From the NCBI GenBank assembly GCA_913009635.1, contig CAJVXI010000004.1:1-49969 (forward strand): a stretch of DNA of 49,969 bases, in the 5' to 3' direction. A program made the translations under genes and the position numbers. Below are positions 5,740-10,649 of the stretch, in pieces. The stretch comes from an uncultured bacterium. GTDB taxonomy: Bacteria > Patescibacteriota > Minisyncoccia > UBA6257 > UBA9933. Below the pieces are notes generated by a model that was given only the letters and a program-made list of their open reading frames with translations, did no database searches and was not told where the DNA came from. The number at the start of each line of letters is the position of its first letter. Position 1 is the first letter of the stretch.

Positions 5740-7908
<2,169 letters not shown>

Positions 7909-7953: not shown

Positions 7954-7995
7954 AGAATATTAACATTGCAAGACGACCGCATTAAATGTTAATAT
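7954..7995. repeat. 42-bp palindromic element, copy 1, overlapping the promoter of the PaaX/Cas2-like gene
   Basis: Perfect 11-bp arms ATATTAACATT (7957-7967) and AATGTTAATAT (7985-7995) enclose a 17-bp centre GCAAGACGACCGCATTA. The last six bases, TAATAT, sit 7 nt before the ATG at 8003 and serve well as the -10 box of a leaderless mRNA, with TTGCAA 18 bp upstream as a weak -35. A protein bound to the palindrome would cover the promoter, so it is a candidate operator for autoregulation. An almost identical copy lies after the gene. Confidence 0.8.
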
Positions 7996-8002
7996 ATAAA
8001 TT

Positions 8003-8512
8003 ATGAGTTTAGTTGAGGAAATATTAACAATTTTAACAGATTATTCTGGAGGTTATAAATTGATGCGCAGAAGAATGATGGGGTATACCGGCCCTATTTA
8101 TTCAAGTATAAAAAGAGATTGCCGAGAAATTAACGACACTTCTTTAAGAAGCACTTTTTCACGCCTTAAAAAACAGGGACTGATAGATAATAATAATGGA
8201 ACTTGGAAGATTAAAAATAAGGGAAGGGAATATTTAAAAAACATAGTAGTTTCAAGAGTGCCTCATTTTGGTCATCTTAAAAATAAAGATAGTAAAAAAG
8301 AAATGATAATCATTTTTGATATTCCTGAAAACAGGCGTGGCCAAAGGAATTGGCTGCGTGCCGAATTGATCGCTTTAGATTTTGCTATTTTACAAAAAAG
8401 CGTTTGGCTTGGCCCTTCTCCTTTGCCTAAGGAGTTTATAAAATATTTAAATAATATTAATATTCTTCAATATTTGAAATTTTTTAAGGCTACCGAGAAA
8501 GAGATAGTTTAA
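8003..8512 (+). CDS. PaaX-like regulator with Cas2-type C-terminal domain
   Basis: A 169-aa protein. Residues about 1-80 look like a winged helix (SLRSTFSRLKKQGLIDNNNG, the recognition helix and wing). The C-terminal half starts EMIIIFDIPENRRGQRNWLR and continues to LQKSVWLGPSPLP, the ferredoxin-like fold shared by PaaX repressors and Cas2, with the first-strand Asp present (FDIPE). Such proteins in CPR genomes are often labelled Cas2, but no cas1, other cas gene or CRISPR array is in the window, and the added DNA-binding domain points to a transcription regulator. It stands alone between two 42-bp palindromes. The start follows the -10 by 7 nt. Confidence 0.65.
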   Translation: MSLVEEILTILTDYSGGYKLMRRRMMGYTGPIYSSIKRDCREINDTSLRSTFSRLKKQGLIDNNNGTWKIKNKGREYLKNIVVSRVPHFGHLKNKDSKKEMIIIFDIPENRRGQRNWLRAELIALDFAILQKSVWLGPSPLPKEFIKYLNNINILQYLKFFKATEKEIV

Positions 8513-8548
8513 TAATTTAATACAAAGTAGATTTGTCGTAATATTTAT

Positions 8549-8590
8549 AGAATATTAACATTACAAGACGACCGCATTAAATGTTAATAT
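8549..8590. repeat. 42-bp palindromic element, copy 2, downstream of the PaaX/Cas2-like gene
   Basis: Identical to the copy at 7954-7995 except for one base in the centre (ACAAGACGACCGCATTA). It begins 36 bp after the stop codon and ends 38 bp before gatC, in the same orientation as copy 1. It could be a second operator affecting gatC or the right end of a small mobile cassette. Confidence 0.8.
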
Positions 8591-8628: not shown

Positions 8629-9015
8629 ATGGCAAAAATTGACAAAGAAATTCTAAAACACTTAGCGGAATTAGCAAGAATAGAAATAGAAGAAAAAGAC
8701 GAAGAAAAATTATTAAAGGACTTACAGGAAATCATTGATTATTTTAAAGAATTGAAGGGGGTGAATATTGAAAATGTCGAGTCAATGACTGGTGGTAGTA
8801 TTTTTTTATCAAATATTTTTCGCGATGACGACTTGATGCAGATTAACGCAGATGACACGCAGATAAACGCAGATACTCATAGGCGGATAAATGTAGATAA
8901 AAAAGATAAAAAAATCAGCGAAAATCTGCGTAAAAATCAGCGTAGATCTGCGTTAGTGGAGTCGTTTCCTGAAGAAGAAGACGGATTTTTGAAAATACCG
9001 CCAGTGTTTAAATAG
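8629..9015 (+). CDS. gatC: Asp-tRNA(Asn)/Glu-tRNA(Gln) amidotransferase subunit C
   Basis: GatC wraps around GatA and stabilises the GatCAB complex that amidates Glu-tRNA(Gln) and Asp-tRNA(Asn). The N-terminus (IDKEILKHLAELARIEI) and the C-terminus (FPEEEDGFLKIPPVF) are typical. At 128 aa it is about 30 residues longer than usual. The extra part (about residues 70-110) is a palindromic repeat read as QINADDTQINADTHRRIN and on. The ATG follows TAAAAT by 6 nt, supporting a leaderless start. gatA follows; gatB is not in this window. Confidence 0.9.
   Translation: MAKIDKEILKHLAELARIEIEEKDEEKLLKDLQEIIDYFKELKGVNIENVESMTGGSIFLSNIFRDDDLMQINADDTQINADTHRRINVDKKDKKISENLRKNQRRSALVESFPEEEDGFLKIPPVFK
8836..8960 (+). 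repeat. CGCAGAT-type palindromic repeat inserted in gatC
   Basis: The left part repeats ACGCAGAT units about every 10-11 bp (GCAGATTAACGCAGATGACA and on). The right part carries the inverse, ATCTGCG/ATCAGCG units, so the whole can fold into a long imperfect hairpin. Relatives occur in tpiA, the hydrolase at 40178, secA and, in an ACGGACTAATAC variant, twice in gatA. Confidence 0.75.
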
Positions 9016-9086: not shown

Positions 9087-10649
9087 ATGGATTTACAAAG
9101 CTTAACAATAAAAAAATTTCATAATAGTTTAATTAAGAAAGAATTTTCTGTTGCCGAAGCAGTTGGGGAGTTTTTTGATTATATTAGCGAGAAAAATGGC
9201 GATATAAACGCTTATCTTCACTTAACAAAGAATTTGGCTTTATCGCAAGCAAGTGTTGTTGATGCGGATTTGGCTGCTGGAAAGGAATTAAATATTTTGG
9301 CTGGCGTACCTTTGGCGATTAAAGATAATATACTAATAGAAGGAGAGTCAACTACAGCGGCCTCAAAAATATTACAAAACTACCGAGCCAGTTATGATGC
9401 TACGGTAATTAAGAAATTAAAATCCAAGAAAGCTGTTTTTCTCGGGAAAACTAATTTGGACGAGTTTGCGATGGGTTCTTCCGGTGAAAATTCTGCTTTT
9501 GGCGTGACTAGGAATCCGCATGATTTAGAACGAGTGCCTGGAGGTACTTCTAGCGGTTCTGTTGCTGCGGTGGCAGCTGGCATGGCTGTAGCTGCTTTAG
9601 GTTCAGATACAGGAGGTTCTATAAGGCAGCCGGCAAGTTTTTGCGGGGTTGTTGGTTTAAAGCCGACTTACGGAAGCGTATCCCGTTACGGATTGATAGC
9701 TTTTGCGTCAAGTTTGGATCAGATCGGCCCTGTTGCAAAAACCGTTGAAGACGCGGAAATTTTATTTAATGCCATAAAGGGAAAAGATTCTTTTGATTCC
9801 ACTTCAGTTGATGTGCATCCTCCAACTCGCGGTTTGAAGATTGAAGACATAAAAAAAATAACTATAGGATTGCCAGAAGAGTATTTTACCGAAAGTTTAA
9901 ATAAGGAAGTTGCAGATGGAGTTAATAAGGCAATAGAGAATTTAAAGAATTTAGGAGTTAAATTTAAAAAAATCAATTTGCCAAATACTAAACACGCGCT
10001 TTCCTGTTATTATATTATTATGCCGGCTGAAGCAAGCGCTAATCTTGCACGATATGACGGCATCCGCTACGCACGGACTAATACTGACTATACACAGACC
10101 AATACAGACAGTCTGCATAAGTCCGCGTTCAGTCAGCGCAAGTCCGCGCTGGAGGATATTTATTTTAAAACTCGAGGAGGTGGGTTTGGAAAAGAAGTAA
10201 AAAGAAGAATTATTCTTGGAACTTTTGTTTTGTCATCCGGCTACTATGACGCTTATTATACTAAAGCCCAAAAAGTTAGGCGTTTAATTAAAGAGGACTT
10301 TGATAGGGCATTTGATCAGTCAGTTGGCGGAATTGATGTGATTTTAGCTCCAACAGCGCCAACCCCCGCGTTTAAAATCGGTGAAAAAGTTGATGATCCG
10401 CTTTCAATGTATTTGTCTGATATTTTTACTATTCCAGTGAATTTAGCTGGTTTGCCCGCGATCTCTATTCCAACACGGACTAATACGGAATATACACAGA
10501 CTAATACAGAAGATAGTCCGCATAAGTCCGCGTCCAGTCCGCGTAAGTCCGCATCTTTGCCGGTGGGGTTTCAATTAATTGGCAAGCATTTTCACGAAAT
10601 TGATATATTGGAAATAGGTAAACAATACGAATTAGCCACTAGCCGCTAG
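9087..10649 (+). CDS. gatA: Glu-tRNA(Gln)/Asp-tRNA(Asn) amidotransferase subunit A with two repeat insertions
   Basis: The amidase subunit of GatCAB. The Ser-cisSer-Lys triad of the amidase signature family is visible: Lys at about 79 (PLAIKDNI), the Gly/Ser-rich loop VPGGTSSGSVAA near 150-160 and Ser 178 in SDTGGSIRQPAS. A GTG at 9078 is also in frame, but it lies inside the heptamer repeat and the ATG at 9087 (MDLQSLTIKK) fits the family. At 520 aa it is about 30-40 residues over length; two insertions (about 327-355 and 461-490) are copies of one palindromic repeat, read as TNTDYTQTNTD... and TNTEYTQTNTE.... The last residues (ELATSR) are encoded by another heptamer array, so the native C-terminus was replaced. 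Confidence 0.95.
   Translation: MDLQSLTIKKFHNSLIKKEFSVAEAVGEFFDYISEKNGDINAYLHLTKNLALSQASVVDADLAAGKELNILAGVPLAIKDNILIEGESTTAASKILQNYRASYDATVIKKLKSKKAVFLGKTNLDEFAMGSSGENSAFGVTRNPHDLERVPGGTSSGSVAAVAAGMAVAALGSDTGGSIRQPASFCGVVGLKPTYGSVSRYGLIAFASSLDQIGPVAKTVEDAEILFNAIKGKDSFDSTSVDVHPPTRGLKIEDIKKITIGLPEEYFTESLNKEVADGVNKAIENLKNLGVKFKKINLPNTKHALSCYYIIMPAEASANLARYDGIRYARTNTDYTQTNTDSLHKSAFSQRKSALEDIYFKTRGGGFGKEVKRRIILGTFVLSSGYYDAYYTKAQKVRRLIKEDFDRAFDQSVGGIDVILAPTAPTPAFKIGEKVDDPLSMYLSDIFTIPVNLAGLPAISIPTRTNTEYTQTNTEDSPHKSASSPRKSASLPVGFQLIGKHFHEIDILEIGKQYELATSR
10066..10152 (+). repeat. palindromic repeat in gatA, copy 1
   Basis: Starts CACGGACTAATACTGAC and ends with CGCAAGTCCGCGC-like units that are the approximate inverse. 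It shares most of its sequence with 10468-10557 in the same gene and is read in the same frame (TDYTQTNTDSLHKSAF...). Confidence 0.8.
10468..10557 (+). repeat. palindromic repeat in gatA, copy 2
   Basis: Starts ACACGGACTAATACGGA and ends AGTCCGCGTAAGTCCGCA. Encodes TEYTQTNTEDSPHKSASS and on. Near-duplicate of the copy 400 bp upstream. Confidence 0.8.

Follow-up and report, generated by a model that had tools for sequence, protein, structure and literature searches.

Matching palindromes bracket PaaX_M/Cas2-like genes in an order of Parcubacteria and suggest autoregulated site-gene-site cassettes

The window, by which we mean the whole 49,969-nucleotide stretch of DNA that was analyzed, contains a short gene between ligA and gatC that is bracketed by two 42-bp palindromes. 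The features of this locus are the following.

5740-7908, forward strand: ligA, the upstream neighbor
7954-7995, forward strand: upstream palindrome (copy 1), a candidate operator over the gene's own promoter, with the dyad element CGACCG at 7974-7979
7966-7994, forward strand: candidate promoter TTGCAA-17-TTAATA within copy 1, from a reading of the sequence and family-wide enrichment
8003-8512, forward strand: gene for a PaaX_M/Cas2-like DNA-binding protein of 169 amino acids
8549-8590, forward strand: downstream palindrome (copy 2), a putative second cognate site that may serve in looping, as a roadblock or as a cassette end
8629-9015, forward strand: gatC, the downstream neighbor, with its ATG at 8629

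Copies 1 and 2 are identical at 41 of 42 positions, have the same orientation and are separated by 595 bp, confirming the positions and the single base difference given in an earlier note on this DNA. That note assigned perfect 11-bp arms to each copy, which is correct for copy 1, but the arms of copy 2 are 12 bp long; 17 bp lie between the arms. Copy 2 ends 38 bp ahead of the gatC ATG, as had been noted. By reading the sequence of copy 1, we identified a candidate sigma70-like promoter (TTGCAA at 7966-7971, a 17-bp spacer and TTAATA at 7989-7994), in agreement with the earlier placement of the gene's -10 box in this copy. As the ATG of the gene (8003) lies just past this candidate promoter, the window mRNA may be leaderless. 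The 17-bp center had previously been described as conserved with no evident structural reason; it contains CGACCG, which fits a CGAYCG dyad that we found throughout the family (see below). Separately, a repeat family is inserted in frame within several conserved genes, including gatC (8835-8960), gatA (10060-10160 and 10470-10560) and, at L009, pheS and pheT; its DNA reads like ...TNTDYTQTNTDSLHKSA... or AGTCCGCG....

The window protein matched the PaaX_M family (PF20803) with 58.7 bits against a cut-off of 24 (E=6e-16). It scored below the cut-offs of the PaaX HTH model (PF07848, E=0.12), the PaaX equivalog model (TIGR02277, 25.3 bits vs 264.55) and both Cas2 models (PF09827, 17.2 vs 23.8 bits; TIGR01573, 16.7 vs 24.5 bits). 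An AlphaFold2 model predicts a winged helix plus a Cas2-like domain, with N-terminal helices and wing strands in which residues 45-83 are confident and the first 40 residues have low pLDDT. The top fold matches in the PDB were Rv0674, Cas2 proteins and E. coli PaaX, none of them under E=0.001. The invariant or nearly invariant residues of the family (G74, D106, S133, L55, P108, R115, R119, L122, Q131 and V134) are those of the PaaX_M fold, and they include neither a conserved His or Tyr nor any known transposase motif. Likeness to Cas2 is found in the C-terminal ferredoxin-like domain, where the first-strand aspartate D106 is conserved, and in the fold matches to Cas2 structures. In contrast to Cas2, the Cas2-like domain of the cassette protein is fused to a predicted winged helix, and the protein falls below the Cas2 family cut-offs, and inspection near the window locus revealed no adjoining cas gene.

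We surveyed the PaaX_M genes of this Parcubacteria order. Genes of this family were present in 51 of 81 sampled genomes, at 0-6 copies per genome, and about 110 were recovered in total. Among these 110 genes, 91 had a palindrome upstream, 96 had one downstream and 85 had both. The match between the upstream and downstream sites exceeded the 99% null for 76 of 108 genes, and 80 of the 84 scorable pairs matched at 70% or more of half-site positions. Median half-site identity was 94% for true pairs and 44% for mismatched ones, of which ~2% reached the 70% level, and none of 95 ORFs distant from a cassette showed upstream/downstream similarity at the cassette level. Together, the frequency of matches in true and mismatched pairs and the result for distant ORFs exclude chance as the source of the pairing. 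About a quarter of the loci lacked a detectable pair. Matched pairs were also found at 22 of 58 further loci on GTDB contigs of other Parcubacteria. Contig scans were run with a clade alignment (A3) in place of a broad alignment (A2) whose diversity was too high for this use.

The genome that contains the window encodes three other PaaX_M genes, each of which lies within a separate palindrome pair that has different arms and a CGATCG center; CGACCG in the window copies is a match to the same CGAYCG dyad. The motif pattern of the window palindrome was found in this genome only among 200 relatives, indicating that the arms are gene-specific rather than that the architecture is rare. The earlier note had asked whether the 42-bp element always flanks this gene family: the architecture does recur, but the exact 42-mer belongs to the window gene, and the other PaaX_M genes have arms of their own. 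We conclude that the bracketed architecture is confirmed and is general beyond the window gene. In addition, two neighboring gene families with no match in Pfam recur next to PaaX genes at 14-17 loci, with their 5' ends always toward the cassette (for example, L067:2509-3202 and L112:2964-4299, numbered in the direction of the PaaX gene).

Counted from the dyad toward the outside, half-sites begin mostly with Y-C-G at +1 to +3, with G at +3 in 79 of 80 cases. Next come positions that vary, then A/T at +8 to +11, and finally an outer stretch of specific sequence that extends to ~+20. Identity between half-sites correlated with identity between proteins (Mantel r=0.36, p<5e-4), and the five pairs of proteins with >70% identity averaged 89% half-site identity. 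This co-variation of arms and protein makes binding of the arms by the protein probable, and it is the pattern that would arise if each palindrome were read by the protein whose gene it brackets. Integron attC, dif and loxP sites were rejected as candidates, as their arm and spacer lengths do not fit and the arms vary by cassette.

To assess promoter overlap, we used the downstream copy as a built-in control, since its palindrome is nearly the same as that of the upstream copy. A TATAAT-like hexamer on the gene strand between +5 and +39 of the center was present in 63 of 78 upstream copies, compared with 36 of 78 downstream copies and 45-47 of 78 for the opposite strands. Given this -10 enrichment over the control, the upstream copy is a good candidate operator for autorepression. 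Across the same 78 loci the downstream copies showed no promoter enrichment, so the earlier suggestion of spill-over control of gatCA is unsupported as a general rule. The spacing between the two copies showed no helical phase, and as the downstream copy is also not linked to a promoter, looping between the copies is unsupported and is put forward here as a proposal.

In E. coli, PaaX binds TGATTC-N27-GAATCA, a span of 39 bp, and by blocking RNA polymerase it represses Px, the promoter of its own gene (PMC9493321). The proteins described here are like E. coli PaaX (PDB 8a39; PMC9493321) in the PaaX_M central domain, a predicted winged helix and a long dyad of similar span, and the overlap of the upstream copy with the candidate promoter suggests a function that resembles PaaX autorepression. 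They differ from it in the CGAYCG center of the site, in arms that change from gene to gene and in the presence of a second site after the gene. Moreover, the window protein stops after the Cas2-like domain with no C-terminal effector domain, and its neighbors are ligA and gatC, with no link to paa genes.

To account for the brackets, the matching of the pairs, the co-variation with the protein, the promoter overlap and the empty, lone, full and inverted states described below, we infer binding, repression, looping and recombination as causes. The explanation that we favor, and consider probable, is a site-gene-site cassette of an autoregulated PaaX-type protein in which two sites bracket the gene and the compact unit flips, is lost and has moved. 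A protein with a winged helix and a Cas2-like dimer domain would bind, as a dimer or a pair of dimers, a dyad of ~34-42 bp with a CGAYCG center and protein-specific arms. Binding at the upstream site, which spans the candidate -35/-10 region, would lead to self-repression, as it does for E. coli PaaX at Px. The downstream site would also be bound with high affinity, and it may plausibly serve in looping or act as a roadblock. Since near-identical palindromes are both direct and inverted repeats, recombination between them could either invert the gene or excise it, with a single palindrome left behind. The unit would also have reached new intergenic gaps.

Comparison of the same gaps among relatives revealed several states of the cassette. 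ligA is directly followed by gatC, without a cassette, in six relatives (G022, G024, G027, G031, G035 and G043), the ligA-gatC junction is occupied by a cassette in G000, and a cassette follows ligA in G004 and G012. The gap between xerC and tRNA-Leu(TAG) contains a cassette in G000, G003, G004, G007 and G023, an inverted one in G011, a lone palindrome in G013 and G035, and neither cassette nor palindrome in eight other genomes that keep tRNA-Leu(TAG) near xerC. The gap after trxB, a gene named from its sequence, holds a cassette in G003, G009, G011 and G018, an inverted one in G059 and a lone palindrome in G005 and G030; this gap was assigned mainly by trxB, and its other neighbor was confirmed in only a few genomes. 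Cassettes found in the same gap can encode proteins of low or undetected similarity, belonging to different subfamilies. These patterns fit a unit that has been gained, flipped and lost, and flips and single-palindrome remnants would be expected from recombination between near-identical palindromes with no special enzyme.

Previously, it had been proposed that this arrangement reflects either autoregulation or a minimal mobile cassette with the palindromes as its ends. Our analysis lends partial support to both ideas, which are not mutually exclusive: the -10 enrichment at upstream copies and the co-variation of arms and protein support the former, and the finding of empty, lone-palindrome, full and inverted states within the same gaps supports the latter. 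As a separate observation, a frequent place for the cassette is between the single xerC-like recombinase gene, at its 3' end, and tRNA-Leu(TAG) (L017, L076, L087, L095, L105, L107 and L108), and in G020 and G021 PaaX genes are likewise found a few kb or less from xerC.

Palindromes also occur away from the gene. The window contains no third copy, as stated in the earlier note, but elsewhere in the 713-kb genome we found two further copies of the window palindrome, one with 2 mismatches upstream of an ABC transporter (C14:12426) and one in the aroB-gyrB gap (C2:6300; genes named from ORF reading). A search by query, which may give an incomplete list, placed about ten lone sites of four types in this genome, and four species of a sister genus have roughly 2-10 each. 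The earlier note held that many unlinked copies would count against a tie to this gene family; the lone copies are few, and the linkage is strong, although not absolute. Lone sites are mostly intact palindromes, often just beyond stop codons or terminators, and by a rough ORF call they fall in 17 co-directional, 7 convergent and 1 divergent gaps, approximately the background distribution. Promoter and non-promoter gaps alike contain them, a pattern that plain repression does not explain. Some of their positions are common to sister species, with symmetric sequence change, and other sites are present in one sister species and absent from another without clean junctions.

Several individual loci are recorded here in their own right. 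In G021, a nucleotidase-like gene that is not PaaX (L212:640-1620) has a palindrome of the same type on each side, ~714 bp apart, and both palindromes are absent from around the nucleotidase-like gene of G020 (L226). One lone palindrome is present as a tandem duplication with a unit of 59 bp (L160:1495-1600; G000 C2:36598-36692), and two lone types lie 30-90 bp apart in one gap at L002/L008 (G000 C14:12426 and 12514) and at L209:1547-1654 (G021). Some lone types match no PaaX_M gene found in their own genome, as if the gene had been lost (L203:1485-1530 in G020; L375 in G005, where the palindrome lies 33-72 bp after trxB). A repeat at the identical ~140-bp contig ends of L046 and L047 was rejected as a candidate, as both records carry 'scaffold_141' in their titles and the shared end is probably an assembly-graph effect.

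A different explanation, which we regard as unlikely, is that the cassette is an active minimal mobile element with the palindromes as its ends, recognized and mobilized by the PaaX/Cas2-like protein, with or without help from a host factor, as a RAYT may act between REPs. Autoregulation would then come from the end that carries the promoter, and lone palindromes would be transposed or excised ends. A single gene of 500-700 bp with matching ends, distributed patchily at 0-6 copies per genome and with different subfamilies in the same gap, has the appearance of such an element, but the (nearly) invariant residues are those of the PaaX_M fold and contain no conserved His or Tyr or known transposase motif. 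Empty sites exist in relatives, as for an insertion sequence, yet there is no target-site duplication, in that direct repeats outside the pair showed no excess over shuffled pairs. The lone site of G013 corresponds to the core of a palindrome from a cassette at another place in that genome, and its flanks are unrelated, as would be expected of a mobile end, whereas lone copies are few and clean excision junctions were not seen. A 91%-identical cassette sits beside different upstream neighbors in G033 and G073, but homology continues for ~50 bp beyond the palindrome. In addition, we found no phage, plasmid or virus relatives, including in IMG/VR.

The layout of the cassette is the same as that of RAYTs (PMC2817692): a small single gene resembling a transposable element lies between two matching palindromes that are also found alone between genes. 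The architecture thus resembles that of RAYT genes between REPs without membership of that family, as RAYTs have the catalytic residues of IS200/IS605-type tyrosine transposases and the cassette protein has no HUH/Tyr motif. REPs are also present in high copy, compared here with ~ten lone sites, of four types, over 713 kb, and the upstream palindrome of the cassette overlaps a candidate promoter. It seems doubtful to us that the cassette is a new kind of minimal mobile element, in which a single PaaX/Cas2-like protein, itself not a known recombinase, would recognize palindromic ends that are at the same time its operator, and would both spread the cassette and leave lone ends behind in Parcubacteria genomes.

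Less probable still is that the palindromes are chromosome-organizing or insulating sites, like matS or REP/BIME, that are read by PaaX-like proteins, and that the gene happens to keep two of them. The ~ten mostly intact lone sites here and the roughly 2-10 in each of four sister-genus species, often beyond terminators or between convergent genes, could be taken in this way, but the sites are few and of several types per genome. Likewise, some positions are common to sister species with symmetric sequence change, but presence or absence at others differs between these species, and the upstream copy overlaps a candidate promoter. It is very improbable that the palindromes are instead RNA or single-stranded DNA hairpins, such as terminators on both sides of the gene, with no protein binding, since the near-perfect palindromes, the better folding of the window copies than of shuffled sequences (z about -2 to -3) and one lone type that lies between convergent genes with A and T tracts like a two-way terminator are set against a largely unpaired 17-bp center in the window copies and against the CGAYCG center, the invariant G at +3, the A/T block at +8 to +11 and the protein co-variation, which favor a protein-bound duplex.

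In the open-licence papers that we searched on PaaX with palindromes, Cas2-like domains or Patescibacteria, the arrangement is undescribed, and no role for the PaaX_M genes of this order was found. The bracket links every protein with its probable DNA site, and it thereby supplies dozens of ready protein-site pairs for binding tests from organisms that cannot be cultured. It also allows one to ask by experiment whether these genes encode a regulator that controls itself or a mobile element with a Cas2-like fold at its core. Cas2 is an integrase subunit in CRISPR adaptation. If the mobile-element explanation were true, the cassettes would bear on the relation of Cas2 to DNA-binding PaaX proteins.
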